64,000 bases of DNA from positions 3,416,297-3,480,296 of the forward strand of contig OZ025872.1 of NCBI GenBank assembly GCA_964019415.1. Direction: 5' to 3'. The stretch's first letter is position 1. Every line of letters begins with the position of its first letter. The position numbers and the translations under genes were made by a program. Below, piece after piece: positions 29,028 through 62,471 of this stretch. Below the pieces are notes generated by a model that searched no databases, was not told the origin of the DNA, and worked only from the letters and a program-made list of their open reading frames with translations. Origin of the DNA: Ianthella basta (Eukaryota; Porifera; Demospongiae; Verongiida; Ianthellidae).

Positions 29028-32000
29028 GTAAATAGGCAGTGTGCTAGGGGACACCACGTATTAAATGGGCAGTGTGCTAGGGGGACATCACGTATTAAAT
29101 GGGCAGTGTGCTAGGTGGACACCACGTATTAAATGGGCAGTGTTCTAGGGGGACACCACGTATGATATGGGCAGTTTGCTAGGGGGACACCACGTATTAA
29201 ATGGGGAGTGTGCTAGGGGGACACTACGTATTAAATGGGCAGCGTACTACAGGGACACCGCGTATTAAATGGGCAATTTGCTAGGGGGACACCACGTATT
29301 AAATGGGGAGTGTGCTAGGGGGACACTACGTATTAAATGGGCAGTGTGCTAGGGGTACACTACGTATTAAATGGGCAGTGTACTAGGGGGACACCACGTA
29401 TTAAATGGGGAGTTTGCTAGGGGGACACCACGTATTAAGTGGGCAGTTTGCTAGGGGGACACCACGTATTAAATGGGCAGTGTGCTGGGGGGACACTACG
29501 TATTAAATGGGCAGTGTCCTAGGGGGACACTACGTAATAAATGGGCAGTGTCCTAGGGGGACACCACGTAATAAATGGGCAGTGTCCTAGGGGGACACTA
29601 CGTATGAAATGGGCAGTGTGCTAGGGGTACACTACGTATTAAATGGGCAGTGTACTAGGGGGACACCGCGTATTAAATGGGCAATTTGCTAGGGGGACAC
29701 CACGTATTAAATGGGGAGTGTACTAGGGGGACACTACGTATTAAATGGGCAGTGGACTAGGGGGACACCGCGTATTAAAAGGGGAGTGTGCTAGGGGGAC
29801 ACTATGTATTAAATGGGCAGTGTGCTAGGGGGACACCACGTATTAAATGGGCAGTGTACTAGGGGGACACCACGTATTAAATGGGCAGTGTACTAGGGGG
29901 ACACCACGTATTAAATGGGCAGTGTCCTAGGGGGACACTACGTATTAAATGGGCAGTGTACTAGGGGGACACCACGTATTAAATGGGGAGTTTGCTAGGG
30001 GGACACTACGTATCAAATGGGCAGTGTACTTGGGGGACACAACGTATTAAATGGGCAGTTTGCTAGGGGGACACTACGTATTAAATGGGGAGTGTGCTAG
30101 GGGGACACCACGTATTAAATGGGCAGTGTACTAGGGGGACACTACGTATTAAATGGGCAGTGGACTAGGGGGACACTACGTATTAAATGGGGAGTGTACT
30201 AGGGGGACACTACGTATTAAATGGGCAGTGGACTAGGGGGACACCGCGTATTAAATGGGGAGTGTGCTAGGGGGACACTATGTATTAAATGGGCAGTGTG
30301 CTAGGGGGACACCACGTATTAAATGGGCAGTGTACTAGGGGGACACCACGTATTAAATAGGCAGTGTACTAGGGGGACACCACGTATTAAATGGGCAGTG
30401 TCCTAGGGGGACACTACGTATTAAATGGGCAGTGTACGAGGGGGACACCACGAATTAAATGGGCTGTTTGCTAGGGGGACACCACGTATTAAATGGGAAG
30501 TGTGCTAGGGGGACACCGCGTATTCAATGGGCAATTTGCTAGGGGGACACTACGTATTAAATGGGCAGTGTGCTAGGGGGACACCACGTACTTAAATGGG
30601 CAGTGTACTAGGGGGACACGACGTATTAAATGGAGAGTTTGCTAGGGGGACACTACGTATTAAATGGGGAGTGTGCTAGGGGGACACCACGTATTAAATG
30701 GGCCGTGTGCTAGGGGGACACTACGTATTAAATGGGCAGTGTACTAGGGGGACACCAGGTATTAAATGGGGAGTTTGCTAGGGGGACACTACGTATTAAA
30801 TGGGCAGTGTACTAGGGGACACTACGTATTAAATGGGCAGTTTGCTAGGGGGACACCACGTATTAAATGGGGAGTGTCCTAGGGGGACACTACGTATTAA
30901 ATGAGCAGTGTCCAAGGGGGACACCACGTATTAAATGGGCAGTGTCCTAGGGGGACACTACATATTAAATGGGCAGTGTACTAGGGGGACACCGCGTATT
31001 AAATGGGGAGTGTGCTAGGGGGACTCTACGTATTAAATGGGCAGTGTACTAGGGGGACACCACGTATTAAATGGGCAGTTTGCTAGGGGGACACTACGTA
31101 TTAAATGGGGAGTGTGCTAGTGGGACACCACGTATTAAATGGGCAGTGTCCTAGGGTGACACCACGTATTAAATGGGCAGTGTCCTAGGGGGACACCACT
31201 TATTAAATGGGCAGTGTGCTAGAGGGACACCACGTATTAAATGGAGAGTGTGCTAGGGGGACACCACGTATTAAATGGGCAGTGTACTAGGTGGACACCA
31301 CGTATTAAATGGGCAGTGTGCTAGGTGGACACCACGTATTAAATGGGCAGTGTGCTAGGTGGACACCACGTATTAAATGGGCAGTGTACTAGGGGGATAA
31401 CCACGTATTAAATGAGCAGTGTGCTAGGGGGACACTACGTATGAAATGGGCAGTGTACTAGGGGGACACCACGTATTAAATGGGCAGTGTGCTAGGTGGA
31501 CACCACGTATTAAATGGGCAGTGTTCTAGGGGGACACCACGTATGATATGGGCAGTTTGCTAGGGGGACACCACGTATTAAATGGGGAGTGTGCTAGGGG
31601 GACACTACGTATTAAATGGGCAGCGTACTACAGGGACACCGCGTATTAAATGGGCAATTTGCTAGGGGGACACCACGTATTAAATGGGGAGTGTGCTAGG
31701 GGGACACTACGTATTAAATGGGCAGTGTGCTAGGGGTACACTACGTATTAAATGGGCAGTGTACTAGGGGGACACCACGTATTAAATGGGGAGTTTGCTA
31801 GGGGGACACCACGTATTAAGTGGGCAGTTTGCTAGGGGGACACCACGTATTAAATGGGCAGTGTGCTGGGGGGACACTACGTATTAAATGGGCAGTGTCC
31901 TAGGGGGACACTACGTAATAAATGGGCAGTGTCCTAGGGGGACACCACGTAATAAATGGGCAGTGTCCTAGGGGGACACTACGTATGAAATGGGCAGTGT

Positions 32001-35000
32001 GCTAGGGGTACACTACGTATTAAATGGGCAGTGTACTAGGGGGACACCGCGTATTAAATGGGCAATTTGCTAGGGGGACACCACGTATTAAATGGGGAGT
32101 GTACTAGGGGGACACTACGTATTAAATGGGCAGTGGACTAGGGGGACACCGCGTATTAAAAGGGGAGTGTGCTAGGGGGACACTATGTATTAAATGGGCA
32201 GTGTGCTAGGGGGACACCACGTATTAAATGGGCAGTGTACTAGGGGGACACCACGTATTAAATGGGCAGTGTACTAGGGGGACACCACGTATTAAATGGG
32301 CAGTGTCCTAGGGGGACACTACGTATTAAATGGGCAGTGTACTAGGGGGACACCACGTATTAAATGGGGAGTTTGCTAGGGGGACACTACGTATCAAATG
32401 GGCAGTGTACTTGGGGGACACAACGTATTAAATGGGCAGTTTGCTAGGGGGACACTACGTATTAAATGGGGAGTGTGCTAGGGGGACACCACGTATTAAA
32501 TGGGCAGTGTACTAGGGGGACACTACGTATTAAATGGGCAGTGGACTAGGGGGACACTACGTATTAAATGGGGAGTGTACTAGGGGGACACTACGTATTA
32601 AATGGGCAGTGGACTAGGGGGACACCGCGTATTAAATGGGGAGTGTGCTAGGGGGACACTATGTATTAAATGGGCAGTGTGCTAGGGGGACACCACGTAT
32701 TAAATGGGCAGTGTACTAGGGGGACACCACGTATTAAATAGGCAGTGTACTAGGGGGACACCACGTATTAAATGGGCAGTGTCCTAGGGGGACACTACGT
32801 ATTAAATGGGCAGTGTACGAGGGGGACACCACGAATTAAATGGGCTGTTTGCTAGGGGGACACCACGTATTAAATGGGAAGTGTGCTAGGGGGACACCGC
32901 GTATTCAATGGGCAATTTGCTAGGGGGACACTACGTATTAAATGGGCAGTGTGCTAGGGGGACACCACGTACTTAAATGGGCAGTGTACTAGGGGGACAC
33001 GACGTATTAAATGGAGAGTTTGCTAGGGGGACACTACGTATTAAATGGGGAGTGTGCTAGGGGGACACCACGTATTAAATGGGCCGTGTGCTAGGGGGAC
33101 ACTACGTATTAAATGGGCAGTGTACTAGGGGGACACCAGGTATTAAATGGGGAGTTTGCTAGGGGGACACTACGTATTAAATGGGCAGTGTACTAGGGGA
33201 CACTACGTATTAAATGGGCAGTTTGCTAGGGGGACACCACGTATTAAATGGGGAGTGTCCTAGGGGGACACTACGTATTAAATGAGCAGTGTCCAAGGGG
33301 GACACCACGTATTAAATGGGCAGTGTCCTAGGGGGACACTACATATTAAATGGGCAGTGTACTAGGGGGACACCGCGTATTAAATGGGGAGTGTGCTAGG
33401 GGGACTCTACGTATTAAATGGGCAGTGTACTAGGGGGACACCACGTATTAAATGGGCAGTTTGCTAGGGGGACACTACGTATTAAATGGGGAGTGTGCTA
33501 GTGGGACACCACGTATTAAATGGGCAGTGTCCTAGGGTGACACCACGTATTAAATGGGCAGTGTCCTAGGGGGACACCACTTATTAAATGGGCAGTGTGC
33601 TAGAGGGACACCACGTATTAAATGGAGAGTGTGCTAGGGGGACACCACGTATTAAATGGGCAGTGTACTAGGTGGACACCACGTATTAAATGGGCAGTGT
33701 GCTAGGTGGACACCACGTATTAAATGGGCAGTGTGCTAGGTGGACACCACGTATTAAATGGGCAGTGTACTAGGGGGATAACCACGTATTAAATGAGCAG
33801 TGTGCTAGGGGGACACTACGTATGAAATGGGCAGTGTACTAGGGGGACACCACGTATTAAATGGGCAGTGTGCTAGGGGGACACTACGTATGAAATGGGC
33901 AGTGTTCTAGGGGGACACCACGTATTAAATTGGCAGTGTGCTAGGGGGACACTACGTATGAAATGGGCAGTGTGCTAGGGGGACACTACGTATTAAATGG
34001 GCAGTGTGCTAGGGGACACTACGTATTAAATGGGCAGTGTACTAGGGAGACACCGCGTATTAAATGGGCAATTTGCTACGGGGACACCACGTATTAAATG
34101 GGCAGTGTACTAGGGGGACACCACGTATTAAATGGGGAGTTTGCTAGGGGGACACTACGTATTAAATGGGCAGTGTACTAGGGGGACACCACGTATTAAA
34201 TGGGCAGTTTGCTAGGGGGACACCACGTATTAAATGGCGAGTGTACTAGGGGGACACTACGTATTAAATAGGCAGTGTGCTAGGGGGACACTACGTATTA
34301 AAAGGGCAGTGTACTAGGGGGACACCACGTATTAAATGGGGAGTTTGCTAGGGAGACACTACGTATTAAATGGGCAGTGTACTAGGGGGACACCACGTAT
34401 TAAATGGGCAGTGTCCTAGGTGGACACCACGTATTAAATGGGCAGTGTCCTAGGTGGACACCACGTATTAAATGGGCAGTGTCGTAGGGGGACACCACGT
34501 AATAAATGGGTAGTGTGCTAGGGGGACACCACGTATTAAATGGGTATTGTACTAGGTGGACACTACGTATTAAATGGGCAGTGTACTAGGGAGACACCAC
34601 GTATTAAATGGGCAGTGTACTAGGTGGACACTACGCATGAAATGGGCAGTGTACTAGGGGGACACCACGTATTAAATGGGCAGTGTGCTAGGGGGACACC
34701 ACGTATTAAATGGGCAGTGTTCTAGGGGGACACCACGTATTAAATGGGTAGTGTCCTAGGGGGACACCATGTATTAAATGGGCAGTGTTCCAGGTGGACA
34801 CCACGTATTAAATGGGCAGTGTGCTAGGGGGACATCACATATTAAATAGACAGTGTGCTAGGGGGACACCACGTATTAAATGGGCAGTATACTAGGGGGA
34901 CACCACGTATTAAATGGGCAGTGTACTAGGTGGACACTACGTATGAAATGGGCAGTGTACTAGGGGGACACCACGTATTAAATGGGCAGTGTGCTAGGGG

Positions 35001-38000
35001 GACACCACGTATTAAATGGGCAGTGTTCTAGGGGGACACCACGTATTAAATGGGTAGTGTCCTAGGGGGACACCATGTATTAAATGGGCAGTGTTCTAGG
35101 CGGACACCACGTATTAAATGGGTAGTGTCCTAGGGGGACACCATGTATTAAATGGGCAGTGTCCTAGGGGGACACCATGTATTAAATAGACAGTGTACTA
35201 GGGGGACACTACGTATTAAATGGGCAGTGTACTGGGGAGACACCACGTATTAAATAGGCAGTGCACTGGGGAGACACTACGTATTAAATGGGCAGTGTGC
35301 TAGGGGTACACTACGTATTAAATGGGCAGTGTACTAGGGGGACACCACGTATTAAATGGGGAGTTTGCTAGGGGGACAACACGTATTTAGTGGGCAGTTT
35401 GCTAGGGGGACACCACGTATTAAATGGGCAGTGTGCTGGGGGGACACTACGTATTAAATGGGCAGTGTCCTAGGGGGACACTACGTAATAAATGGGCAGT
35501 GTCCTAGGGGGACACCACGTAATAAATGGGCAGTGTCCTAGGGGGACACTACGTATGAAATGGGCAGTGTGCTAGGGGTACACTACGTATTAAATGGGGA
35601 GTGTACTAGGGGGACACCGCGTATTAAATGGGCAAATTGCTAGGGGGACACCACGTATTAAATGGGGAGTGTACTAGGGGGACACTACGTATTAAATGGG
35701 CAGTGGACTAGGGGAACACCGCGTATTAAAAGGGGAGTGTGCTAGGGGGACACTATGTATTAAATGGGCAGTGTGCTAGGGGGACACCACGTATTAAATG
35801 GGCAGTGTACTAGGGGGACACCACGTATTAAATGGGCAGTGTACTAGGGGGACACCACGTATTAAATGGGCAGTGTCCTAGGGGGACACTACGTATTAAA
35901 TGGGCAGTGTACTAGGGGGACACCACGTATTAAATGGGGAGTTTGCTAGGGGGACACTACGTATCAAATGGGCAGTGTACTTGGGGGACACAACGTATTA
36001 ATAGGGCAGTTTGCTAGGGGGACACTACGTATTAAATGGGGAGTGTGCTAGGGGGACACCACGTATTAAATGGGGAGTGTATTAGGGGGACACTACGTAT
36101 TAAATGAGCAGTGGACTAGGGGGACACTACGTATTAAATGGGGAGTGTACTAGGGGGACACTACGTATTAAATGGGCAGTGGACTAGGGGGACACCGCGT
36201 ATTAAATGGGGAGTGTGCTAGGGGGACACTATGTATTAAATGGGCAGTGTGCTAGGGGGACACCACGTATTAAATGGGCAGTGCACTAGGGGGACACCAC
36301 GTATTAAATAGGCAGTGTACTAGGGGACACCACGTATTAAATGGGCAGTGTCCTAGGGGGACACTACATATTAAATGGGCAGTGTACTAGGGGGACATCA
36401 CGTATTAAATGGGGAGTTTGCTAGGGGGACACTACGTATCAAATGGGCAGTGTACTTGGGGGACACAATGTATTAAATGGGCAGTTTGCTAGGGGGACAC
36501 TACGTATTAAATGGGCAGTGTCCTAGGGGGACACCACGTATTAAATGGGGAGTTTGCTAGGGGGACACCACGTATTAAATGGGCAGTGTCCTAGGGGGAC
36601 ACCACGTATTAAATGGGGAGTTTGCTAGGGGGACACAACGCATTAAATGGGCAGTTTGCTAGGGGGACACAACGTATTAAATGGGGAGTGTGCTAGGGGG
36701 ACACCACGTATTAAATGGGCAGTTTGCTAGGGGGACACAACGTATTAAATGGGGAGTGTGCTAGGGGGACACAACGTTTTAAATGGGCAGTGCACTAGGG
36801 GGACACCACGTATTAAATGGGCAGTGTGCTAGGGGGACAGCACGTATTAAATGGGCAGTGTCCTAGGGGGACAGCACGTATTAAATGGGCAGTTTGCTAG
36901 GGGGACACCACGTATTAAATGGGCAGTGTGCTAGGGGGACAGCACGTATTAAATGGGCAGTGTCCTAGGGGGACAGCACGTATTAAATGGGCAGTTTGCT
37001 AGGGAGACACCACGTATTAAATGGGGAGTGTGCTAGGGGGACACCACGTATTAAATGGGCAGTGTGCTAGGGGGACACTACGTATTAAATGGGCAGTGTA
37101 CTAGGGGGACAGCACATATTAAATGGGCAGTTTGCTAGGGGGCCAGCACGTATTAAATGGGCAGTTTGCTAGGGGGACAGCACGTATTAAATGGGCAGTT
37201 TGCTAGGGGGACACAACGTATTAAATGGGGAGTGTGCTAGGGGGACACCACGTATTAAATGGGCAGTTTGCTAGGGGGACACCACGTATTAAATGGGGAG
37301 TGTGCTAGGGGGACACTACGTTTTAAATGGGCAGTGCACTAGGGGGACACCACGTATTAAATGGGCAGTGTGCTAGGGGGACAGCACGTATTAAATGGGC
37401 AGTGTCCTAGGGGGACAGCACGTATTAAATGGGCAGTGTCCTAGGGGGACAGCACGTATTAAATGGGCAGTTTGCTAGGGGGACACCACGTATTAAATGG
37501 GCAGTGTGCTAGGGGGACAGCACGTATTAAATGGGCAGTGTCCTAGGGGGACAGCACGTATTAAATGGGCAGTTTGCTAGGGAGACACCACGTATTAAAT
37601 GGGGAGTGTGCTAGGGGGACACCACGTATTAAATGGGCAGTGTGCTAGGGGGACACTACGTATTAAATGGGCAGTGTACTAGGGGGACAGCACATATTAA
37701 ATGGGCAGTTTGCTAGGGGGCCAGCACGTATTAAATGGGCAGTTTGCTAGGGGGACAGCACGTATTAAATGGGCAGTTTGCTAGGGGGACAGCACGTATT
37801 AAATGGGCAGTGTCCTAGGGGGACAGCACGTATTAAATGGGCAGTTTGCTAGGGGGACAGTACGTAATAAATGGGCAGTGTGCTAGGGGGACACTACGTA
37901 TTAAATGGGGAGTGTACTAGGGGGACACCACGTATTAAATGGGCAGTGTGCTAGGGGGACACCACGTATTAAATGGGCAGTGTCCTAGGGGGACGCACGT

Positions 38001-41000
38001 ATTAAATGGGCAGTTTGCTAGGGGGACACCACGTATTAAATGGGCAGTGTGCTAGGGGGAAACCACGTATTAAATGGGCAGTGTACTAGGGGGACACCAC
38101 GTATTAAATGGGCAGTGTGCTAGGGGGACACTACGTATTAAATGGGCAGTGTTCTAGGGGGACACTACGTATTAAATGGGCAATGTACTAGGGGGACACC
38201 ATGTATTAAATGGGGAGTGTGCTAGGGGGACACTACGTATTAAATGGGGAGTGTACTAGGGGGACACCACGTATTAAATGGGCAGTGTGCGAGGGGGACA
38301 CCACGTATTAAATGGGCAGTGTGCTAGAGGGACACCACGTATTAAATGGGCAGTGTGCTAGGGGGACACCACGTATTAAATAGGGAGTTTGCTAGGGGGA
38401 CACTACGTATTAAACGGGCAGTGTGCTAGGGGGACACCACTTATTAAATGGAGAGTTTGCTAGGGGGACACTACGTATTAAATGGGCAGTGTACTAGGGG
38501 GACACCACGTATTAAATGGGCAGTGTGCTAGGGGGACACCACGTATTAAATGGGCATTGTGCTAGAGGGACACCACGTATTAAATGGGGAGTTTGCTAGG
38601 GGGACACCACGTATTAAATGGGCAGTGTACTAGGGGGACACCACGTATTAAATGGGCAGTGTACTAGGGGGACACCGCGTATTAAATGAGCAGTGTTTTA
38701 GGGGGACACTACGTATTAAATGGGGAGTGTGCTAGGGGGACACCACATATTAAATGGGGAGTTTACTAGGGGGACACTACGTATTAAATGGGCAGTGGAC
38801 TAGGGGGACACTACGTATTAAATGGGGAGTGTACTAGGGGGACACTACGTATTAAATGGGCAGTGGACTAGGGGGACACCGCGTATTAAATGGGGAGTGT
38901 GCTAGGGGGACACTATGTATTAAATGGGCAGTGTGCTAGGGGGACACCACGTATTAAATGGGCAGTGTACTAGGGGGACACCACGTATTAAATAGGCAGT
39001 GTACTAGGGGGACACCACGTATTAAATGGGCAGTGTGCTAGGGGGACACCACGTATTAAATGGGCAGTGTCCTAGGGGGACAGTACGTATTAAATGGGCA
39101 GTTTGCTAGGGGGACACCACGTATTAAATGGGCAGTGTGCTAGGGGGACACCACGTATTAAATGGGCAGTGTACTAGGGGGACACTACGTATTAAATGGG
39201 GAGTGTGCTAGGGGGACACCACGTATTAAATGGGGAGTGTACTAGGGGACACTACGTATTAAATGGGGAGTGTACTAGGGGGACACTACGTATTAAATGG
39301 GGAGTGTACTAGGGGGACACTACGTATTAAATGGGCAGTGGACTAGGGGAACACCGCGTATTAAATGGGGAGTGTGCTAGGGGGACACTATGTATTAAAT
39401 GGGCAGTGTGCTAGGGGGACACCACGTATTAAATGGGCAGTGTACTAGGGGGACACCACGTATTAAATAGGCAGTGTACTAGGGGGACACAACGTATTAA
39501 ATGGGCAGTTTGCTAGGGGGACACCACGTATTAAATGGGCAGTGTCCTAGGGGGACACCACGTATTAAATGGGGAGTTTGCTAGGGGGACACCACGTATT
39601 AAATGGGCAGTGTCCTAGGGGGACACCACGTATTAAATGGGGAGTTTGCTAGGGGGACACAACGCATTAAATGGGCAGTTTGCTAGGGGGACACAACGTA
39701 TTAAATGGGGAGTGTGCTAGGGGGACACCATGTATTAAATGGGGAGTGTGCTAGGGGGACACTACGTATTAAATGGGCAGTACACTAGGGGGACACCACG
39801 TATTAAATGGGCAATGTTCTAGGGGGACAGCACGTATTAAATGGGCAGTGTCCTAGGGGGACAGCACGTATTAAATGGGCAGTTTGCTAGGGGGACACCA
39901 CGTATTAAATGGGCAGTGTGCTAGGGGGACAGCACGTATTAAATGGGCAGTGTCCTAGGGGGACAGCACGTATTAAATGGGCAGTTTGCTAGGGAGATAC
40001 CACGTATTAAATGGGCAGTGTGCTAGGGGGACACCACGTATTAAATGGGCAGTGTACTAGGGGGACACCGCGTATTAAATGGGCAGTGTACTAGGGGGAC
40101 ACCACGTATTAAATGGGGAGTGTGCTAGGGGGACACTACGTATGAAATGGGCAGTGTTCTAGTGGGATAACCACGTATTAAATGGGCAGTGTGCTAGGGG
40201 GACACTACGTATGAAATGGGCAGTGTGCTAGGGGGACACTACGTATTAAATGGGCAGTGTACTAGGTGGACACTACGTATGAAATGGGCAGTGTACCAGG
40301 GGGACACTACGTATTAAATGGGGAGTGTGCTAGGGGGACACCACATATTAAATGGGCAGTGTGCTAGGGGGACACCACGTAATAAATGGGCAGTGTTCTA
40401 GGGGGACACCACGTATTAAATGTGTAGTGTCCTAGGGGGACACCATGTATTAAATGGGCAGTGTTCTAGGGGGACACCACGTATTAAATGGGCAGTGTAC
40501 TAGGGGGACACCGCGTATTAAATGGGCAGTGTACTAGGGGGACACCACGTATTAAATGGGGAGTGTGCTAGGGGGACACTACGTATGAAATGGGCAGTGT
40601 TCTAGTGGGATAACCACGTATTAAATGGGCAGTGTACTAGGGGGACACCGCGTATTAAATGGGCAGTGTACTAGGGGGACACCACGTATTAAATGGGGAG
40701 TGTGCTAGGGGGACACTACGTATGAAATGGGCAGTGCGCTAGGGGGACACTATGTATTAAATGGGCAGTGTACTAGGTGGACACTACGTATGAAATGGGC
40801 AGTGTACTAGGGGGACACCACGTATTAAATGGGGAGTTTGCTAGGGGGACACTACGTATCAATAGGGCAGTGTACTTGGGGGACACAACGTATTAAATGG
40901 GCAGTGTGCTAGGGGGACACCACGTATTAAATGGGCAGTGTACTAGGGGGACACCGCGTATTAAATGGGCAGTGTACTAGGGGGACACCACGTATTAAAT

Positions 41001-44000
41001 GGGGAGTGTGCTAGGGGGACACTACGTATGAAATGGGCAGTGTTCTAGTGGGATAACCACGTATTAAATGGGCAGTGTGCTAGGGGGACACTATGTATGA
41101 AATGGGCAGTGTGCTAGGGGGACACTACGTATTAAATGGGCAGTGTACTAGGTGGACACTACGTATTAAATGGGCAGTGGACTAGGGGGACACCGCGTAT
41201 TAAATGGGGAGTGTGCTAGGGGGACACTATGTATTAAATGGGCAGTGTGCTAGGGGGACACCACGTATTAAATGGGCAGTGTACTAGGGGGACACCACGT
41301 ATTAAATAGGCAGTGTACTAGGGGGACACCACGTATTAAATGGGCAGTGTGCTAGGGGGACACCACGTATTAAATGGGCAGTGTCCTAGGGGGACACCAC
41401 GTATTAAATGGGGAGTTTGCTAGGGGGACACCACGTATTAAATGGGCAGTGTGCTAGGGGGACACCACGTATTAAATGGGCAGTGTACTAGGGGGACACT
41501 ACGTATTAAATGGGGAGTGTGCTAGGGGGACACCACGTATTAAATGGGGAGTGTACTAGGGGGACACTACGTATTAAATGGGGAGTGTACTAGGGGGACA
41601 CCACGTATTAAATGGGGAGTGTACTAGGTGGACACCACGTATTAAATGGGGAGTGTACTAGGGGGACACTACGTATTAAATGGGGAGTGTACTAGGGGGA
41701 CACTACGTATTAAATGGGCAGTGGACTAGGGGGACACCGCGTATTAAATGGGGAGTGTGCTAGGGGGACACTATGTATTAAATGGGCAGTGTGCTAGGGG
41801 GACACCACGTATTAAATGGGCAGTGTACTAGGGGGACACCACGTATTAAATAGGCAGTGTACTAGGGGGACACCACGTACTAAATGGGCAGTGTCTTAGG
41901 GGGACACTACGTATTAAATGGGCAGTGTACTAGGGGGACACCACGTATTAAATGGGGAGTTTGCTAGGGGGACACTACGTATCAAATGGGCAGTGTACTT
42001 GGGGGACACAACGTATTAAATGGGCAGTTTGCTAGGGGGACACTACGTATTAAATGGGCAGTGTCCTAGGGGGACACCACGTATTAAATGGGGAGTTTGC
42101 TAGGGGGACACCACGTATTAAATGGGCAGTGTCCTAGGGGGACACCACGTATTAAATGGGGAGTTTGCTAGGGGGACACAACGCATTAAATGGGCAGTTT
42201 GCTAGGGGGACACAACGTATTAAATGGGGAGTGTGCTAGGGGGACACCATGTATTAAATGGGGAGTGTGCTAGGGGGACACTACGTATTAAATGGGCAGT
42301 GTACTAGGGGGACACTACGTATGAAATGGGCAGTGTACTAGGGGGACACCACATATTAAATGGGCAGTGTGCTAGGGGGACACCACGTAATAAATGGGCA
42401 GTGTTCTAGGGGGACACCACGTATTAAATGTGTAGTGTCCCAGGGGGACACCATGTATTAAATGGGCAGTGTTCCAGGGGGACACCACGTATTAAATGGG
42501 CAGTGTCCTAGGGGGACACTACGTATTAAATGGGCAGTGTACTAGGGGGACACCACGTATTAAATGGGCAGTGGACTAGGGGGACACCACGTATTAAATG
42601 GGCAGTTTGTAGGGGGACACCACGTATTAAATGGCGAGTGTGCTAGGAGGACACCACGTATTAAATGGGCAGTGTCCTAGTTGGACACCACGTAATAAAT
42701 GGGCAATTTGCTATGGGGACACCGCGTTTTAAATGGGCAATTTGCTAGGGGGACACCACGTTATAAATGGGGAGTGTACTAGGGGGACACTACGTATTAA
42801 ATGGGCAGTGGACTAGGGGGACACTACGTATTAAATGGGGAGTGTACTAGGGGGACACTACGTATTAAATGGGCAGTGGACTAGGGGGACACCGCGTATT
42901 AAATGGGGAGTGTGGTAGGGGGACACTATGTATTAAATGGGCAGTGTGCTAGGGGGACACCACGTATTAAATGGGCAGTGTACTAGGGGGACACCACGTA
43001 TTAAATAGGCAGTGTACTAGGGGGACACCACGTATTAAATGGGCAGTGTCCTAGGGGGACACTACGTATTAAATGGGCAGTGTACTAGGGGGACACCACG
43101 TATTAAATGGGGAGTTTGCTAGGGGGACACTACGTATCAAATGGGCAGTGTACTTGGGGGACACAACGTATTAAATGGGCAGTTTGCTAGGGGGACACCA
43201 CGTATTAAATGGGCAGTGTCCTAGGGGGACACCACGTATTAAATGGGGAGTTTGCTAGGGGGACACCACGTATTAAATGGGCAGTGTCCTAGGGGGACAC
43301 CACGTATTAAATGGGGAGTTTGCTAGGGGGACACAACGCATTAAATGGGCAGTTTGCTAGGAGGACACAACGTATTAAATGGGGAGTGTGCTAGGGGGAC
43401 ACCATGTATTAAATGGGGAGTGTGCTAGGGGGACACTACGTATTAAATGGGCAGTACACTAGGGGTACACCACGTATTAAATGGGCAGTGTGCTAGGGGG
43501 ACACCACGTATTAAATGGGCAGTGTCCTAGGGGGACAGCACGTATTAAATGGGCAGTTTGCTAGGGGGACACCACGTATTAAATGGGCAGTGTGCTAGGG
43601 GGACAGCACGTATTAAATGGGCAGTGTCCTAGGGGGACAGCACGTATTAAATGGGCAGTTTGCTAGGGAGACACCACGTATTAAATGGGCAGTGTGCTAG
43701 GGGGACACCACGTATTAAATGGGCAGTGTACTAGGGGGACACCACGTATTAAATGGGCAGTTTGCTAGGGGGACACCACGTATTAAATGGGCAGTGTACT
43801 AGGGGGACACCGCATATTAAAGGGGCAATTTGCTAGGGGGACACCACGTATTAAATGGGGAGTTTGCTAGGGGGACACTACGTATTAAATGGGGAGTTTG
43901 CTAGGGGGACACTACGTATTAAATGGGCAGTGTACTAGGGGGACACCGCGTATTAAATGGGCAGTTTGCTAGGGGGACACCACGTATTAAATGGGGAGTG

Positions 44001-47259: not shown

Positions 47260-47260
47260 T

Positions 47261-48800: not shown

Positions 48801-49000
48801 NNNNNNNNNNNNNNNNNNNNNNNNNNNNNNNNNNNNNNNNNNNNNNNNNNNNNNNNNNNNNNNNNNNNNNNNNNNNNNNNNNNNNNNNNNNNNNNNNNNN
48901 NNNNNNNNNNNNNNNNNNNNNNNNNNNNNNNNNNNNNNNNNNNNNNNNNNNNNNNNNNNNNNNNNNNNNNNNNNNNNNNNNNNNNNNNNNNNNNNNNNNN
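48801..49000. other. Assembly gap, 200 N
   Basis: Exactly 200 N, a typical placeholder size, so the true distance is unknown. Confidence 1.
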
Positions 49001-50428: not shown

Positions 50429-50768
50429 TGTATAGGGAGGACTGACTCACATGTTACACTGAGTACCCTATAGAGTAGTCTGACTACGTATAGGGAGGAC
50501 TGACTCACATGTTACACTGAGTACCCTATAGAGTAGTCTGACTACGTATAGGGAGGACTGACTCACATGTTACACTGAGTACCCTATAGAGTAGTCTGAC
50601 TACGTATAGGGAGGACTGACTCACATGTTACACTGAGTACCGTATAGAGTAGTCTGACTATGTATAGGGAGGACTGACTCACATGTTACATTGAGTACCC
50701 TATAGAGTAGTCTGACTATGTATAGGGAGGACTGACTCACATGTTACATTGAGTACCCTATAGAGTAG
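50429..50768. repeat. 58-bp minisatellite, 6 copies
   Basis: Starts at 50431, 50489, 50547, 50605, 50663 and 50721. The same unit as at 28863 but with three more copies. Confidence 0.95.
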
Positions 50769-53700
50769 TAAATAGGCAGTGTGCTAGAAGACACCACGTA
50801 TTAAATGGGCAGTGTGCTAGGGGGACATCACGTATTAAATGGGCAGTGTGCTAGGGGGACACCACGTATTAAATGGGCAGTGTTCTAGGGGGACACCACG
50901 TATGAAATGGGCAGTGTGCTAGGGGGACACCACGTATTAAATGGGGAGTGTGCTAGAGGGGACACTACGTATTAAATGGGCAGCGTACTAGAGGGACACC
51001 GCGTATTAAATGGGCAATTTGCTAGGGGGACACCACGTATTAAATGGGGAGTGTGCTAGGGGGACACTACGTATTAAATGGGCAGTGTGCTAGGGGTACA
51101 CTACGTATTAAATGGGCAGTGTACTAGGGGGACACCACGTATTAAATGGGGAGTTTGCTAGGGGGACACTACGTATCAAATGGGCAGTGTACTTGGGGGA
51201 CACAACGTATTAATAGGGCAGTTTGCTAGGGGGACACTACGTATTAAATGGGGAGTGTGCTAGGGGGACACCACGTATTAAATGGGGAGTGTATTAGGGG
51301 GACACTACGTATTAAATGAGCAGTGGACTAGGGGGACACTACGTATTAAATGGGGAGTGTACTAGGGGGACACTACGTATTAAATGGGCAGTGGACTAGG
51401 GGGACACCGCGTATTAAATGGGGAGTGTGCTAGGGGGACACTATGTATTAAATGGGCAGTGTGCTAGGGGGACACCACGTATTAAATGGGCAGTGCACTA
51501 GGGGGACACCACGTATTAAATAGGCAGTGTACTAGGGGACACCACGTATTAAATGGGCAGTGTCCTAGGGGGACACTACATATTAAATGGGCAGTGTACT
51601 AGGGGGACATCACGTATTAAATGGGGAGTTTGCTAGGGGGACACTACGTATCAAATGGGCAGTGTACTTGGGGGACACAATGTATTAAATGGGCAGTTTG
51701 CTAGGGGGACACTACGTATTAAATGGGCAGTGTCCTAGGGGGACACCACGTATTAAATGGGGAGTTTGCTAGGGGGACACCACGTATTAAATGGGCAGTG
51801 TCCTAGGGGGACACCACGTATTAAATGGGGAGTTTGCTAGGGGGACACAACGCATTAAATGGGCAGTTTGCTAGGGGGACACAACGTATTAAATGGGGAG
51901 TGTGCTAGGGGGACACCACGTATTAAATGGGCAGTTTGCTAGGGGGACACAACGTATTAAATGGGGAGTGTGCTAGGGGGACACAACGTTTTAAATGGGC
52001 AGTGCACTAGGGGGACACCACGTATTAAATGGGCAGTGTGCTAGGGGGACAGCACGTATTAAATGGGCAGTGTCCTAGGGGGACAGCACGTATTAAATGG
52101 GCAGTTTGCTAGGGGGACACCACGTATTAAATGGGCAGTGTGCTAGGGGGACAGCACGTATTAAATGGGCAGTGTCCTAGGGGGACAGCACGTATTAAAT
52201 GGGCAGTTTGCTAGGGAGACACCACGTATTAAATGGGGAGTGTGCTAGGGGGACACCACGTATTAAATGGGCAGTGTGCTAGGGGGACACTACGTATTAA
52301 ATGGGCAGTGTACTAGGGGGACAGCACATATTAAATGGGCAGTTTGCTAGGGGGCCAGCACGTATTAAATGGGCAGTTTGCTAGGGGGACAGCACGTATT
52401 AAATGGGCAGTTTGCTAGGGGGACACAACGTATTAAATGGGGAGTGTGCTAGGGGGACACCACGTATTAAATGGGCAGTTTGCTAGGGGGACACCACGTA
52501 TTAAATGGGGAGTGTGCTAGGGGGACACTACGTTTTAAATGGGCAGTGCACTAGGGGGACACCACGTATTAAATGGGCAGTGTGCTAGGGGGACAGCACG
52601 TATTAAATGGGCAGTGTCCTAGGGGGACAGCACGTATTAAATGGGCAGTGTCCTAGGGGGACAGCACGTATTAAATGGGCAGTTTGCTAGGGGGACACCA
52701 CGTATTAAATGGGCAGTGTGCTAGGGGGACAGCACGTATTAAATGGGCAGTGTCCTAGGGGGACAGCACGTATTAAATGGGCAGTTTGCTAGGGAGACAC
52801 CACGTATTAAATGGGGAGTGTGCTAGGGGGACACCACGTATTAAATGGGCAGTGTGCTAGGGGGACACTACGTATTAAATGGGCAGTGTACTAGGGGGAC
52901 AGCACATATTAAATGGGCAGTTTGCTAGGGGGCCAGCACGTATTAAATGGGCAGTTTGCTAGGGGGACAGCACGTATTAAATGGGCAGTTTGCTAGGGGG
53001 ACAGCACGTATTAAATGGGCAGTGTCCTAGGGGGACAGCACGTATTAAATGGGCAGTTTGCTAGGGGGACAGTACGTAATAAATGGGCAGTGTGCTAGGG
53101 GGACACTACGTATTAAATGGGGAGTGTACTAGGGGGACACCACGTATTAAATGGGCAGTGTGCTAGGGGGACACCACGTATTAAATGGGCAGTGTCCTAG
53201 GGGGACGCACGTATTAAATGGGCAGTTTGCTAGGGGGACACCACGTATTAAATGGGCAGTGTGCTAGGGGGAAACCACGTATTAAATGGGCAGTGTACTA
53301 GGGGGACACCACGTATTAAATGGGCAGTGTGCTAGGGGGACACTACGTATTAAATGGGCAGTGTTCTAGGGGGACACTACGTATTAAATGGGCAATGTAC
53401 TAGGGGGACACCATGTATTAAATGGGGAGTGTGCTAGGGGGACACTACGTATTAAATGGGGAGTGTACTAGGGGGACACCACGTATTAAATGGGCAGTGT
53501 GCGAGGGGGACACCACGTATTAAATGGGCAGTGTGCTAGAGGGACACCACGTATTAAATGGGCAGTGTGCTAGGGGGACACCACGTATTAAATAGGGAGT
53601 TTGCTAGGGGGACACTACGTATTAAACGGGCAGTGTGCTAGGGGGACACCACTTATTAAATGGAGAGTTTGCTAGGGGGACACTACGTATTAAATGGGCA

Positions 53701-56700
53701 GTGTACTAGGGGGACACCACGTATTAAATGGGCAGTGTGCTAGGGGGACACCACGTATTAAATGGGCATTGTGCTAGAGGGACACCACGTATTAAATGGG
53801 GAGTTTGCTAGGGGGACACCACGTATTAAATGGGCAGTGTACTAGGGGGACACCACGTATTAAATGGGCAGTGTACTAGGGGGACACCGCGTATTAAATG
53901 AGCAGTGTTTTAGGGGGACACTACGTATTAAATGGGGAGTGTGCTAGGGGGACACCACATATTAAATGGGGAGTTTACTAGGGGGACACTACGTATTAAA
54001 TGGGCAGTGGACTAGGGGGACACTACGTATTAAATGGGGAGTGTACTAGGGGGACACTACGTATTAAATGGGCAGTGGACTAGGGGGACACCGCGTATTA
54101 AATGGGGAGTGTGCTAGGGGGACACTATGTATTAAATGGGCAGTGTGCTAGGGGGACACCACGTATTAAATGGGCAGTGTACTAGGGGGACACCACGTAT
54201 TAAATAGGCAGTGTACTAGGGGGACACCACGTATTAAATGGGCAGTGTGCTAGGGGGACACCACGTATTAAATGGGCAGTGTCCTAGGGGGACAGTACGT
54301 ATTAAATGGGCAGTTTGCTAGGGGGACACCACGTATTAAATGGGCAGTGTGCTAGGGGGACACCACGTATTAAATGGGCAGTGTACTAGGGGGACACTAC
54401 GTATTAAATGGGGAGTGTGCTAGGGGGACACCACGTATTAAATGGGGAGTGTACTAGGGGACACTACGTATTAAATGGGGAGTGTACTAGGGGGACACTA
54501 CGTATTAAATGGGGAGTGTACTAGGGGGACACTACGTATTAAATGGGCAGTGGACTAGGGGAACACCGCGTATTAAATGGGGAGTGTGCTAGGGGGACAC
54601 TATGTATTAAATGGGCAGTGTGCTAGGGGGACACCACGTATTAAATGGGCAGTGTACTAGGGGGACACCACGTATTAAATAGGCAGTGTACTAGGGGGAC
54701 ACAACGTATTAAATGGGCAGTTTGCTAGGGGGACACCACGTATTAAATGGGCAGTGTCCTAGGGGGACACCACGTATTAAATGGGGAGTTTGCTAGGGGG
54801 ACACCACGTATTAAATGGGCAGTGTCCTAGGGGGACACCACGTATTAAATGGGGAGTTTGCTAGGGGGACACAACGCATTAAATGGGCAGTTTGCTAGGG
54901 GGACACAACGTATTAAATGGGGAGTGTGCTAGGGGGACACCATGTATTAAATGGGGAGTGTGCTAGGGGGACACTACGTATTAAATGGGCAGTACACTAG
55001 GGGGACACCACGTATTAAATGGGCAATGTTCTAGGGGGACAGCACGTATTAAATGGGCAGTGTCCTAGGGGGACAGCACGTATTAAATGGGCAGTTTGCT
55101 AGGGGGACACCACGTATTAAATGGGCAGTGTGCTAGGGGGACAGCACGTATTAAATGGGCAGTGTCCTAGGGGGACAGCACGTATTAAATGGGCAGTTTG
55201 CTAGGGAGATACCACGTATTAAATGGGCAGTGTGCTAGGGGGACACCACGTATTAAATGGGCAGTGTACTAGGGGGACACCGCGTATTAAATGGGCAGTG
55301 TACTAGGGGGACACCACGTATTAAATGGGGAGTGTGCTAGGGGGACACTACGTATGAAATGGGCAGTGTTCTAGTGGGATAACCACGTATTAAATGGGCA
55401 GTGTGCTAGGGGGACACTACGTATGAAATGGGCAGTGTGCTAGGGGGACACTACGTATTAAATGGGCAGTGTACTAGGTGGACACTACGTATGAAATGGG
55501 CAGTGTACCAGGGGGACACTACGTATTAAATGGGGAGTGTGCTAGGGGGACACCACATATTAAATGGGCAGTGTGCTAGGGGGACACCACGTAATAAATG
55601 GGCAGTGTTCTAGGGGGACACCACGTATTAAATGTGTAGTGTCCTAGGGGGACACCATGTATTAAATGGGCAGTGTTCTAGGGGGACACCACGTATTAAA
55701 TGGGCAGTGTACTAGGGGGACACCGCGTATTAAATGGGCAGTGTACTAGGGGGACACCACGTATTAAATGGGGAGTGTGCTAGGGGGACACTACGTATGA
55801 AATGGGCAGTGTTCTAGTGGGATAACCACGTATTAAATGGGCAGTGTACTAGGGGGACACCGCGTATTAAATGGGCAGTGTACTAGGGGGACACCACGTA
55901 TTAAATGGGGAGTGTGCTAGGGGGACACTACGTATGAAATGGGCAGTGCGCTAGGGGGACACTATGTATTAAATGGGCAGTGTACTAGGTGGACACTACG
56001 TATGAAATGGGCAGTGTACTAGGGGGACACCACGTATTAAATGGGGAGTTTGCTAGGGGGACACTACGTATCAATAGGGCAGTGTACTTGGGGGACACAA
56101 CGTATTAAATGGGCAGTGTGCTAGGGGGACACCACGTATTAAATGGGCAGTGTACTAGGGGGACACCGCGTATTAAATGGGCAGTGTACTAGGGGGACAC
56201 CACGTATTAAATGGGGAGTGTGCTAGGGGGACACTACGTATGAAATGGGCAGTGTTCTAGTGGGATAACCACGTATTAAATGGGCAGTGTGCTAGGGGGA
56301 CACTATGTATGAAATGGGCAGTGTGCTAGGGGGACACTACGTATTAAATGGGCAGTGTACTAGGTGGACACTACGTATTAAATGGGCAGTGGACTAGGGG
56401 GACACCGCGTATTAAATGGGGAGTGTGCTAGGGGGACACTATGTATTAAATGGGCAGTGTGCTAGGGGGACACCACGTATTAAATGGGCAGTGTACTAGG
56501 GGGACACCACGTATTAAATAGGCAGTGTACTAGGGGGACACCACGTATTAAATGGGCAGTGTGCTAGGGGGACACCACGTATTAAATGGGCAGTGTCCTA
56601 GGGGGACACCACGTATTAAATGGGGAGTTTGCTAGGGGGACACCACGTATTAAATGGGCAGTGTGCTAGGGGGACACCACGTATTAAATGGGCAGTGTAC

Positions 56701-59700
56701 TAGGGGGACACTACGTATTAAATGGGGAGTGTGCTAGGGGGACACCACGTATTAAATGGGGAGTGTACTAGGGGGACACTACGTATTAAATGGGGAGTGT
56801 ACTAGGGGGACACCACGTATTAAATGGGGAGTGTACTAGGTGGACACCACGTATTAAATGGGGAGTGTACTAGGGGGACACTACGTATTAAATGGGGAGT
56901 GTACTAGGGGGACACTACGTATTAAATGGGCAGTGGACTAGGGGGACACCGCGTATTAAATGGGGAGTGTGCTAGGGGGACACTATGTATTAAATGGGCA
57001 GTGTGCTAGGGGGACACCACGTATTAAATGGGCAGTGTACTAGGGGGACACCACGTATTAAATAGGCAGTGTACTAGGGGGACACCACGTACTAAATGGG
57101 CAGTGTCTTAGGGGGACACTACGTATTAAATGGGCAGTGTACTAGGGGGACACCACGTATTAAATGGGGAGTTTGCTAGGGGGACACTACGTATCAAATG
57201 GGCAGTGTACTTGGGGGACACAACGTATTAAATGGGCAGTTTGCTAGGGGGACACTACGTATTAAATGGGCAGTGTCCTAGGGGGACACCACGTATTAAA
57301 TGGGGAGTTTGCTAGGGGGACACCACGTATTAAATGGGCAGTGTCCTAGGGGGACACCACGTATTAAATGGGGAGTTTGCTAGGGGGACACAACGCATTA
57401 AATGGGCAGTTTGCTAGGGGGACACAACGTATTAAATGGGGAGTGTGCTAGGGGGACACCATGTATTAAATGGGGAGTGTGCTAGGGGGACACTACGTAT
57501 TAAATGGGCAGTGTACTAGGGGGACACTACGTATGAAATGGGCAGTGTACTAGGGGGACACCACATATTAAATGGGCAGTGTGCTAGGGGGACACCACGT
57601 AATAAATGGGCAGTGTTCTAGGGGGACACCACGTATTAAATGTGTAGTGTCCCAGGGGGACACCATGTATTAAATGGGCAGTGTTCCAGGGGGACACCAC
57701 GTATTAAATGGGCAGTGTCCTAGGGGGACACTACGTATTAAATGGGCAGTGTACTAGGGGGACACCACGTATTAAATGGGCAGTGGACTAGGGGGACACC
57801 ACGTATTAAATGGGCAGTTTGTAGGGGGACACCACGTATTAAATGGCGAGTGTGCTAGGAGGACACCACGTATTAAATGGGCAGTGTCCTAGTTGGACAC
57901 CACGTAATAAATGGGCAATTTGCTATGGGGACACCGCGTTTTAAATGGGCAATTTGCTAGGGGGACACCACGTTATAAATGGGGAGTGTACTAGGGGGAC
58001 ACTACGTATTAAATGGGCAGTGGACTAGGGGGACACTACGTATTAAATGGGGAGTGTACTAGGGGGACACTACGTATTAAATGGGCAGTGGACTAGGGGG
58101 ACACCGCGTATTAAATGGGGAGTGTGGTAGGGGGACACTATGTATTAAATGGGCAGTGTGCTAGGGGGACACCACGTATTAAATGGGCAGTGTACTAGGG
58201 GGACACCACGTATTAAATAGGCAGTGTACTAGGGGGACACCACGTATTAAATGGGCAGTGTCCTAGGGGGACACTACGTATTAAATGGGCAGTGTACTAG
58301 GGGGACACCACGTATTAAATGGGGAGTTTGCTAGGGGGACACTACGTATCAAATGGGCAGTGTACTTGGGGGACACAACGTATTAAATGGGCAGTTTGCT
58401 AGGGGGACACCACGTATTAAATGGGCAGTGTCCTAGGGGGACACCACGTATTAAATGGGGAGTTTGCTAGGGGGACACCACGTATTAAATGGGCAGTGTC
58501 CTAGGGGGACACCACGTATTAAATGGGGAGTTTGCTAGGGGGACACAACGCATTAAATGGGCAGTTTGCTAGGAGGACACAACGTATTAAATGGGGAGTG
58601 TGCTAGGGGGACACCATGTATTAAATGGGGAGTGTGCTAGGGGGACACTACGTATTAAATGGGCAGTACACTAGGGGTACACCACGTATTAAATGGGCAG
58701 TGTGCTAGGGGGACACCACGTATTAAATGGGCAGTGTCCTAGGGGGACAGCACGTATTAAATGGGCAGTTTGCTAGGGGGACACCACGTATTAAATGGGC
58801 AGTGTGCTAGGGGGACAGCACGTATTAAATGGGCAGTGTCCTAGGGGGACAGCACGTATTAAATGGGCAGTTTGCTAGGGAGACACCACGTATTAAATGG
58901 GCAGTGTGCTAGGGGGACACCACGTATTAAATGGGCAGTGTACTAGGGGGACACCACGTATTAAATGGGCAGTTTGCTAGGGGGACACCACGTATTAAAT
59001 GGGCAGTGTACTAGGGGGACACCGCATATTAAAGGGGCAATTTGCTAGGGGGACACCACGTATTAAATGGGGAGTTTGCTAGGGGGACACTACGTATTAA
59101 ATGGGGAGTTTGCTAGGGGGACACTACGTATTAAATGGGCAGTGTACTAGGGGGACACCGCGTATTAAATGGGCAGTTTGCTAGGGGGACACCACGTATT
59201 AAATGGGGAGTGTGCTAGGGGGACACCAAGTATTAAATGGGCAGTGTCCTAGGGGGACACCACGTATTAAATGGGCAGTGTACTAGGTGGACACCACGTA
59301 ATAAAAGGGCAGTTTGCTAGGGGGACACCACGTATTAAATGGGCAGTTTGTTAGGCGGACACCATGTATTAAATGGGCAGTGTCCTAGGTGGACACCACG
59401 TATTAAATGGGCAGTGTTCTAGGTGGAAACTACGTATTAAATGGGCAGTGTATTTGGGGGACACCACGTATTAAATGTGCAGTTTGCTAGGGGGACACCA
59501 CGTATTAAATGGGTAGTGTACTAGGGGGACACCACGTATTAAATGGGTAGTGTCCTAGGGTGACACCACGTATTAAATGGGCAGTGTCCTAGGGGGACAC
59601 CACGTATTAAATGGGCAGTGTACTAGGGGGACACCACGTATTAAATGGGGAGTGTGCTAGGTGGACACCACGTATTAAATGGGCAGTGTCCTAGGGGGAC

Positions 59701-62471
59701 ACCACGTATTAAATGGGTAGTTTGCTAGGGGGACACCACGTATTAAATGGGGAGTGTGCTAGGGGGACACCACGTATTAAATGGGGAGTGTGCTAGGGGG
59801 ACACCACGTATTAAATGGGCAGTGTACTAGGGGGACATCGCGTATTAAATGGGCAATTTGCTAGGGGGACACCACGTATTAAATGGGGAGTATGCTAGGG
59901 GGACACCACGTATTAAATGGGGAGTGTACTAGGGGGACATCGCGTATTAAATGGGCAATTTGCTAGGGGGACACCACGTATTAAATGGGGAGTGTGCTAG
60001 GGGGACACTGCGTATTAAATGGGCAGTGTCCTAGCGGGACACCACGTATTAAATGGGGAGTGTGCTAGGGGGACACCACGTATTAAATGGGCAGTGTACT
60101 AGGGGGACACCACGTATTAAATGGGGAGTGTGCTAGGGGGACACGACGTATTAAATGGGCAGTGTGCTAGGGGGACACCACGTATTAAATGGGCAGTTTG
60201 CTAGGGGGACACCACGTATTAAATGGGGAGTGTTCTAGGGGGACACCACGTATTAAATGGGGAGTGTACTAGGGGGACACCACGTATTAAATGGGCAGTG
60301 TGCTAGGGGGACACCACGTATTAAATGGGGAGTGTGCTAGGGGGACACGACGTATTAAATGGGCAGTGTGCTAGGGGGACGCCGCGTATTAAATGGGCAC
60401 TTTGCTAGGGGGACACCACGTATTAAATGGGGAGTGTGCTAGGGGGACACTACGTATTAAATGGGCAGTGTACTAGGGGGGCACCGCGTATTAAATGGGC
60501 ACTTTGCTAGGGGGGCACCACGTATTAAATGGGGAGTGTGCTAGGGGGACACTACGTATTAAATGGGCAGTGTACTAGGGGGACACCGCGTATAAAATGG
60601 GCAATTTGCTAGGGGGACACCACGTATTAAATGGGGAGTGTCCTAGTGGGGACACCACGTATTAAATGGGCAGTGTCCTAGGGGGACACCACGTATTAAA
60701 TGGGCAGTTTGCTAGGGGGACACTACGTATTAAATGGGGAGTGTACTAGGGGGACACCACGTATTAAATGGGGAGTGTACTAGGGGGACACCACGTATTA
60801 AATGGGCAGTGTGCTAGGGGGATACCACGTATTAAATGGGGAGTGTGCTAGGGGGACACGACGTATTAAATGGGCAGTGTGCTAGGGGGACGCCGCGTAT
60901 TAAATGGGCACTTTGCTAGGGGGACACCACGTATTAAATGGGGAGTGTGCTAGGGGGACAGCACGTATTAAATGGGCACTTTGCTAGGGGGGCACCACGT
61001 ATTAAATGGGGAGTGTCCTAGTGGGGACACCACGTATTAAATGGGCAGTGTCCTAGGGGGACACCACGTATTAAATGGGCAGTTTGCTAGGGGGACACTA
61101 CGTATTAAATGGGCAGTGTACTAGGGGGACACCACGTATTAAATGGGGAGTTTGCTAGGGGGACACTACGTATTAAATGGGCAGTGTACTAGGGGGACAC
61201 CACATATTAAATGGGCAGTTTGCTAGGGGGACACCACGTATTAAATGGGGAGTGTGCCAGGGGGACACCGCGTATTAAATTGGCAGTGTACTAGGGGACA
61301 CCACGTATTAAATGGGCAGTGTCCTAGCGGGACACCACGTATTAAATGGGGAGTGTGCTAGGGGGACACCACGTATTAAATGGGCAGTGTACTAGGGGGA
61401 CACCACGTATTAAATGGGCAGTGTGCTAGGGGGACTCCACGTATTAAATGGGGAGTGTGCTAGGGGGACACTACGTATTAAATGGGCAGTGTACTAGGGG
61501 GACACCGCGTATTAAATGGGCAGTGTGCTAGGGGGACACCACGTATTAAATGGGCAGTGTACTAGGGGGACACCACGTATTAAATGGGGAGTGTGCTAGG
61601 GGGACACCACGTATTAAATGGGCAGTGCACTAGGGGGACACCACGTATTAAATGGGCAGTTTGCTAGGGGGACACCACGTATTAAATGGGGAGTGTGCTA
61701 GGGGGACACCGCGTATTAAATTGGCAGTGTACTAGGGGACACCACGTATTAAATGGGCAGTGTCCTAGCGGGACACCACGTATTAAATGGGGAGTGTGCT
61801 AGGAGGACACCACGTATTAAATGGGCAGTGTACTAGGGGGACACCACGTATTAAATGGGCAGTGTGCTAGGGGGACACCACGTATTAAATGGGGAGTGTG
61901 CTAGGGGGACACTACGTATTAAATGGGCAGTGTACTAGGGGGACACCGCGTATTAAATGGGCAGTGTGCTAGGGGGGACACCACGTATTAAATGGGCAGT
62001 GTACTAGGGGGACACCACGTATTAAATGGGGAGTGTGCTAGGGGGACACTACGTATTAAATGGGCAGTGTACTAGGGGGACACCGCGTATTAAATGGGCA
62101 ATTTGCTAGGGGGACACCACGTATTAAATGGGGAGTGTCCTAGTGGGGACACCACGTATTAAATGGGCAGTGTGCTAGGTGGGCACCACTTATTAAATGG
62201 GCAGTGTCCTAGGGGGACACCACGTATTAAATGGGCAGTGTACTAGGGGGACACTACGTATTAAATGGGCAGTGTCCTAGGGGGACACCACGTATTAAAT
62301 GGTAGTGTCCTAGGGGGACACTACGTATTAAATGGGCAGTGTCCTAGGGGGACACTACGTATTAAATGGGCAGTGTACTAGGTGGACACCACGTATTAAA
62401 TGGACAGTGTACTAGGGGGACACCACGTATTAAATCGGCAGTGTACTAGGTGGACACCACGTATTTAATGG
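50769..62471. repeat. 34-bp satellite array 2, about 344 monomers
   Basis: The same monomer as array 1. The left end (50769 to about 51160) follows array 1 from 29028 with offset about 21,741. From there to the right end it follows array 1 from about 35,950 with offset 15,212. It thus equals array 1 minus an in-register 6,529 bp. It ends in the same altered monomer before block A. Confidence 0.98.

Follow-up and report, generated by a model that had tools for sequence, protein, structure and literature searches.

What a 34-bp tandem repeat is doing in almost half of a sponge genomic window, and whether its two blocks are two separate arrays, are the questions raised by a 64,000-bp stretch of the Ianthella basta genome (C5:3416297-3480296, called the window here; C5 is contig OZ025872.1, and other contigs likewise carry C numbers). 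The genome searched comprises 209 Mb in 96 contigs. The repeat is probably a minisatellite subfamily confined to a region of C5 in which a segment was amplified; misaligned exchange would turn the arrays over there, and the second block of the window is most likely redundant for the greater part. Gene function is not needed to explain the arrays.

The 34-bp array in the window is real. Tandem Repeats Finder (TRF) gave a single period-34 row at 29025-62471, and the consensus of the unit is GTATTAAATGGGCAGTGTGCTAGGGGGACACCAC. A direct scan of the window found 877 monomer starts, and splitting into monomers yielded 536 in block 1 and 343 in block 2, in agreement with the approximately 880 head-to-tail monomers described by a first-pass annotation made from the sequence alone. 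The two blocks together cover 29,927 of the 64,000 window bases, which also fits its "almost half". The unit length of "exactly 34 bp" is correct for 838 of the 876 spacings between monomer starts but not for 35 spacings of 33 or 35 bp and two of 67 bp; the last one is the inter-block gap. At an identity of at least 24/34, no monomer was found in the window on the reverse strand or outside the blocks, and three shuffles also gave none. Nearly every unit had been credited with a CpG-bearing junction and one core. CpG is present at 489 of the 535 monomer junctions of block 1, as described, but the exact core CTAGGGGGACAC occurs in 628 copies per 877 monomers (72%), which makes the statement on the core too strong. 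The G-runs are confined to the plus strand, as had been observed: block 1 contains 457 runs of G5+ against 0 of C5+, and 1,007 runs of G3+ against 1 of C3+.

Blocks 1 and 2 are not two independent observations. Block 2 is carried by a piece of 15,000 bp that lies between a run of 200 N and a run of 5,000 N, the latter starting directly past the last window base. Identity to array Y, another 34-bp array of C5, begins at the first base of this piece and continues for 2,172 bp with 0 mismatches. A tract of 12,780 bp without a single mismatch to block 1 and its 3' flank follows; its first 75 bp, which lie inside the array, also belong to the Y tract (Table 1). Past the 12,780-bp tract, the flanks differ by 1 bp within a TG run, after which the two pieces break off at the same homologous base to within 11 bp. 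Two splittings of block 2 into monomers put 333 or 334 of its 343 units in an unbroken row that is also present in block 1. The 15,000-bp piece is a near-complete mosaic of the left end of Y and the right part of block 1. When the sequence beyond the 5,000 N was compared with the flank at the paralogue Q, no continuation was found except for one 160-bp match (76%).

Zero differences in 12,780 bp would mean that the same DNA was seen twice or that an exchange took place only generations ago. The right-hand 12.8 kb of block 2 is most likely block 1 DNA that was entered in the assembly twice. This redundancy is ranked first and a real duplication second, with a chimera as one route to redundancy. 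Under a real tandem duplication, the hybrid would have arisen when Y and block 1 crossed over unequally in a parent or ancestor, only generations ago, and both block 1 and the hybrid would exist on the chromosome as drawn. The exact mosaic with its in-phase 75-bp switch, the discordance of its left and right flanks, and the long common run of 32 monomers that Q and block 1 also have speak for such an event. However, the tail of Q, the closest other one, still has 11 differences from that of block 1 in 1,441 bp (99.24% identity, approximately 1 difference per 130 bp), compared with 0 in 12,780 bp here. The parent of the left part is 253 kb upstream and not adjacent, an N run separates the blocks, and the ends of the two pieces coincide to within 11 bp. 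A real duplication is a doubtful, though serious, possibility. The hybrid piece may instead be a library or assembly chimera, created by template switching or by a wrong path at the 75-bp identity without any biological exchange, which overlaps with redundancy. Both of its halves are identical to loci of the same assembly without allelic differences, and 15,000 bp is close to the length of one long read. On the other hand, 75 bp is a short overlap for a plain assembly mis-join, and the locus rev1 independently has discordant flanks, so that exchange across arrays seems to occur anyway. A chimera is considered unlikely. For scaffolded genomes in general, redundancy of this kind would mean that a repeat block can be counted twice, as 333-334 of the 343 block 2 monomers are block 1 again.

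Exchange between arrays was examined on C5, where six arrays were compared in 15 pairs (Y, Z, R, block 1, and block 2 over their full length, and Q by its first 8 kb). The longest consecutive sharing of monomers was 334 between blocks 1 and 2, 32 between Q and block 1, and 11 between Y and block 2, and it was 7 or less in the other 12 pairs. The final 43-44 monomers of each of the five arrays P, Q, Z, R, and Y were also compared with block 1; P shared 19, Q 7, Z 2, R 2, and Y 1. The mean divergence of 34-bp-long monomers from the consensus is 5.5-6.6% in each of the six arrays. A recent expansion, which the first-pass annotation thought worth testing, is supported by the exact block duplication inside block 1 and by exact sharing between arrays.

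The flanks divide the loci into groups. Over 560 bp of left flank at ten loci, Y, R, and block 2 are 97.5-100% identical, and Z, Q, P, block 1, C78, and rev1 are 96.2-98.8% identical, with 90.7-92.5% between the two groups; rev2 belongs to neither, with 91.1-93.9% identity to every other locus. The right flank was compared over 900 bp at eight loci, a set without rev2, whose right junction was not found, and C78, whose right flank was not included. Here block 1, block 2, and Q form one group (99.5-100%) and Y, R, and rev1 another (98.5-98.7%), and Z and P are in neither. The left flank of block 2 is 100% identical to Y and 91.6% to block 1, and its right flank is 100% identical to block 1 and 97.2% to Y. 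The left flank of rev1 is 98.0-98.2% identical to Q, P, and block 1 and 91.8% to Y, and its right flank is 98.7% identical to Y and 96.8% to block 1. The group changes across the array at block 2 and rev1, two of the eight loci with both flanks, and the other six reveal no clear change. This flank discordance supports exchange inside the arrays.

Matches to the junction with the 58-bp leader repeat, within 3 mismatches, number 11 (10 on C5 and 1 on C78, two of them being those of the window), and matches to the array end number 7, all on C5. By paired junctions, the C5 arrays are approximately 2.8-33 kb long, the longest being Q, which is known from its ends; the description of the blocks as "megarray-like" goes too far. 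The arrays found on C5 have minus-strand orientation at 1.94-2.35 Mb and plus-strand orientation at 3.21-3.48 Mb and are separated from one another by other sequence. Longer matches to the 3' flank on C5 are found on the minus strand at 1.89-2.35 Mb, whereas those at 3.21-3.48 and 7.85-8.0 Mb are on the plus strand (40 of 71 candidates scored). The strand pattern of these matches would represent a large inverted arrangement, either real or derived from scaffolding.

The repeat belongs to a wider family. A 31-nt pattern of the unit, with up to 2 mismatches, has 15,333 sites in the genome (6,854 forward and 8,479 reverse; 0 for the reversed-pattern control), of which 796 are in the window. The exact core has 17,010 sites against 19 for its control. 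Among the 100 matches listed, the 31-nt pattern is on C2, C3, and C5. A rarer variant occurs at 7 places, 5 on C3 and 2 on C5, and more than 3 perfect consensus units in a row occur at one place, on C3. One C3 array, known from its ends, extends over 2.992-3.012 Mb, and smaller ones are located at 3.080 and 12.989 Mb. In C3:2989000-2996999, at about 3700-4665, the array is split after approximately 6 units by approximately 1 kb of other sequence, which is probably a later insert. On C2 (6.95 and 7.17 Mb), irregular arrays with spacings of 23, 28, and 30 bp have the common core GTCCTAGGGGGACA, and their low unit identity suggests that they are older. A tandem repeat of 76-77 bp adjoins such an irregular array in C2:7163500-7173499 (9039-10000), and a 76-bp repeat is also found near the 6.95-Mb array. 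Selection on the core over the spacer in the C2 arrays was considered and is not argued for, as the spacer columns mix three unit types.

The 34-bp unit is related to a 30-bp unit. The 30-mer GTCCTAGGGGGACACTATTAAATGGGTGGT and the 34-mer differ by one 4-bp gap and 2 substitutions, and the alignment of the 34-mer with the C8 30-mer scores 45, compared with 18.5 for the best of 500 shuffles. The unit comparisons with core-sharing relatives each score above all 500 shuffles. A 3-kb sample of C8 is a 29/30-bp array throughout, with 93% matches. With up to 2 mismatches, the 30-mer GTCCTAGGGGGACACTATTAAATGGGTGGT has 1,191 sites (control 0), on C3, C8, C10, C12, and C17 among the 100 matches listed. 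The C2-type 30-mer, with up to 3 mismatches, has 646 sites (control 0) and adds C2, C6, C13, C20, C21, and C53 among the matches listed. The 34-bp monomer corresponds to a 29/30-bp minisatellite unit with a 4-bp insertion. Judged by these searches of the assembled sequence, the 34-bp unit has relatives elsewhere in its own genome. Together with the 30-bp unit, it suggests an ordered series for the spread of the core over several chromosomes.

Together with these data, the following sequence of events can be proposed. A core-sharing minisatellite would have spread over the genome, leaving arrays on C2, C3, C5, and C8 and sites on further contigs. A 29/30-bp ancestor of the GTCCTAGGGGGACACTATTAAATGGGTGGT type may then have gained 4 bp, CACG, and become the 34-bp unit, a gain that would also have created the CpG at the monomer junction; this direction of descent, from 30 to 34 bp, is the likelier one. 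The 34-bp form would have been situated in a C5 segment that was later copied many times, each copy with its own array. This segment consists of the 58-bp leader, the 34-bp array, and a 3' flank with an exon piece resembling the gene CKAP5. Misaligned exchange may grow, shrink, and homogenise the array of each copy and is the presumed cause of turnover, with the internal 70-monomer duplication in block 1 as a possible fresh example. In the piece with block 2, the left end of Y passes into the right-hand portion of block 1 through the 75 bp of common array.

Several points weigh against this explanation. The spread over contigs rests on the first 100 matches listed per search. The flank discordance comes from 2 of 8 loci and from flanks of 560 and 900 bp, and at rev1 and Q one array is assumed between two junctions, with the middles unread. 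The 1-bp difference in the TG run of the 3' flanks means that the two tracts were not literally pasted, and the shortness of the 75-bp overlap favours a real or library-made junction molecule over a mis-join. Identical sequence is equally predicted by a real, very recent duplication, and redundancy is an interpretation of that identity. It is also conceivable, although rather improbable, that the arrays are active exchange hotspots that alter the copy number of the gene segment on C5. The 15-kb piece would then be a live junction molecule, an allele or somatic product of the animal that was sequenced, made by recombination of Y and block 1 within 75 bp, with approximately 237 kb between them removed or doubled. 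If the junction is real, it would show at base resolution an exchange mediated by a minisatellite within an amplified region, and one assembly would hold both of its parents.

The distribution of the family also bears on two other origins. The core-sharing arrays could mark the centromeres of many chromosomes, and the occurrence of a single core family on many contigs and the scatter of 34-bp arrays across C5 at 1.9-3.5 Mb speak for this. However, C3 has at least five 34- or 30-bp sites (2.99, 3.08, 5.94, 11.26, and 12.99 Mb), too many for one centromere, and the C5 arrays are tens of kb long and separated by other sequence, which makes a centromeric satellite very unlikely. A classical heterochromatic satellite would extend uninterrupted for hundreds of kb; the arrays as assembled are tens of kb and split by other sequence, although longer arrays may be collapsed.

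Similarly, the arrays could be internal repeats of a mobile element, comparable to the Helentrons of the oyster, and their short lengths and scattered sites are in line with this. One array of 6 units lies within an open reading frame (ORF) that presumably encodes a Penelope-like reverse transcriptase; no family match was obtained for it. However, four relatives of this ORF have no 34-mer, and their alignment with it ends 0-10 bp before the array, which means that the array inserted into the ORF. Moreover, the 400-bp flanks of five loci have nothing in common at E 0.01 except for 38-bp (76%) and 14-bp matches in the same two 3' flanks, and no conserved Helitron or Helentron element ends were found beside the arrays in them. 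A transposon-borne origin is thus highly improbable. The 6-unit array (C2 5.14 Mb; C2:5140533-5143544, about 1481-1684) breaks the ORF at a CGTATT that the ORF and the unit share. This motif is kept at the junction in one of the four relatives only, so insertion by microhomology is a guess.

The arrays were noted earlier as lying beside gene exons, and this is supported. A CKAP5-like TOG-domain piece of 45 aa is found approximately 0.9 kb 3' of each block; its PDB matches are CKAP5-A (E 2.3e-8) and Mini spindles (E 2.4e-8), although Pfam detected no family, even at E 5, on the ORF that holds it. It is the sole exon type identified near the arrays, and it is on the minus strand. The annotation had predicted a G-rich transcript prone to R-loops or G-quadruplexes (G4). 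A transcribed element might act through these. The G-runs on one strand and the GC skew of +0.32 to +0.40 in the array rows are compatible with such an element. Nevertheless, no canonical G4 motif (four G3+ runs, loops of 1-7) occurs in block 1, and extending the loops to 12 also yields 0; only when loops up to 20 are allowed do 1,760 overlapping G4-like starts appear. The 34-mer folds no better than shuffles on either strand (z -0.13 and +1.08). As the exon piece is on the minus strand, the RNA of its gene would be C-rich, and on C5 at 1.9-2.35 Mb the arrays are reversed. The prediction is not supported on these points, and an element acting through R-loops or G4 is hardly credible.

A core selected as a hairpin was also considered; a dimer of the 30-mer is more stably folded than shuffles (z -3.28), whereas one of the 34-mer is not (z -0.13), and the proposal is unsupported. 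CpG observed/expected is 0.56 in block 1, and its monomer junctions comprise 489 CG, 25 TG, and 11 CA, which gives no strong sign of CpG decay at the junctions. None of 4,227 Rfam families was detected at the gathering score. From the sequence, nothing points to a function for the arrays.

Hypervariable minisatellites of the Jeffreys type have units of 10-60 bp and form kilobase-sized interstitial arrays at loci that share a short core. The present unit of 34 bp falls within this range (~10-60 bp), and its arrays reach tens of kb. Separate loci have one short core with other spacers (units of 23, 28, or 30 bp on C2 and 29/30 bp on C8), and internal block duplications are another likeness. In contrast to those minisatellites, the core is GTCCTAGGGGGACA and not the human core, and copy number follows segmental duplication. 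Satellite-like elements of Tribolium are described in euchromatin, and TCAST is also the major pericentromeric satellite, at 35% of the genome (PMC3411249). The 34-bp arrays resemble the elements of that account as satellite-type repeats associated with genes outside heterochromatin, but no heterochromatic parent was identified for them. Satellite-like repeats carried by Helentrons are described for the Pacific oyster (PMC7492417). The likeness to the repeats described there lies in many scattered arrays of related units; unlike them, the 34-bp arrays at five loci have no common element ends around them. Four 11-mers of the unit were searched against full-text literature, and no satellite report was recognised by title among the matches listed; one 27-nt stretch of the unit had 0 exact matches in IMG/VR.

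The coordinates of the features are given in Table 1. The 200-N gap, the exact identity of block 2, the 58-bp leaders, and the 70-monomer duplication had gone unremarked in the first-pass annotation.

Table 1. Features of the 34-bp arrays and their surroundings, in window coordinates.
Feature	Position	Strand	Basis
58-bp tandem repeat, 2.9 copies, leads into block 1	28864..29029	+	TRF, sequence
Block 1, 34-bp array, 536 monomers, 187 distinct	29025..47250	+	TRF, monomer split
Exact 70-monomer tandem duplication in block 1, period 2,381 bp	29092..33853	+	70 identical monomers at lag 70; end inferred from lag
12,780 bp, block 1 and 3' flank, zero mismatches to 51098-63877	35886..48665	+	
3' flank of block 1; 99.94% identity to 3' flank of block 2	47251..48800	+	
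CKAP5-like TOG-domain exon fragment, 45 aa	48132..48266	-	PDB match
200-N run dividing the two pieces	48801..49000	.	
Zero-mismatch tract of 2,172 bp shared with the left end of array Y (C5:3212700-3214871), 253 kb upstream	49001..51172	+	
58-bp tandem repeat, 5.9 copies, leads into block 2	50430..50769	+	TRF, sequence
Block 2, 34-bp array, 343 monomers; 129 of 133 distinct monomers also in block 1	50770..62470	+	TRF, monomer split
75-bp switch interval inside array, common to both parent loci	51098..51172	+	
12,780 bp, block 2 and 3' flank, identical to 35886-48665	51098..63877	+	
3' flank of block 2; then 5,000 N from window end	62471..64000	+	
Second TOG exon fragment copy, within duplicated tract	63344..63478	-	Same translated ORF

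A section of the array 3' flank (47411-48106) recurs upstream of block 1 at 27339-28034 with 96.7% identity, so the copied segment has internal duplicates. Besides the CKAP5-like exon piece, an ankyrin repeat is another match in the sequence. An ORF of 741 aa on the minus strand (85-2310) has, by eye, a P-loop-like motif and a DTGGQ motif; no Pfam family was found for it at E 5, and its best PDB match (E 0.1) is not convincing. A fragment at 28137-28592 resembles this ORF by look.

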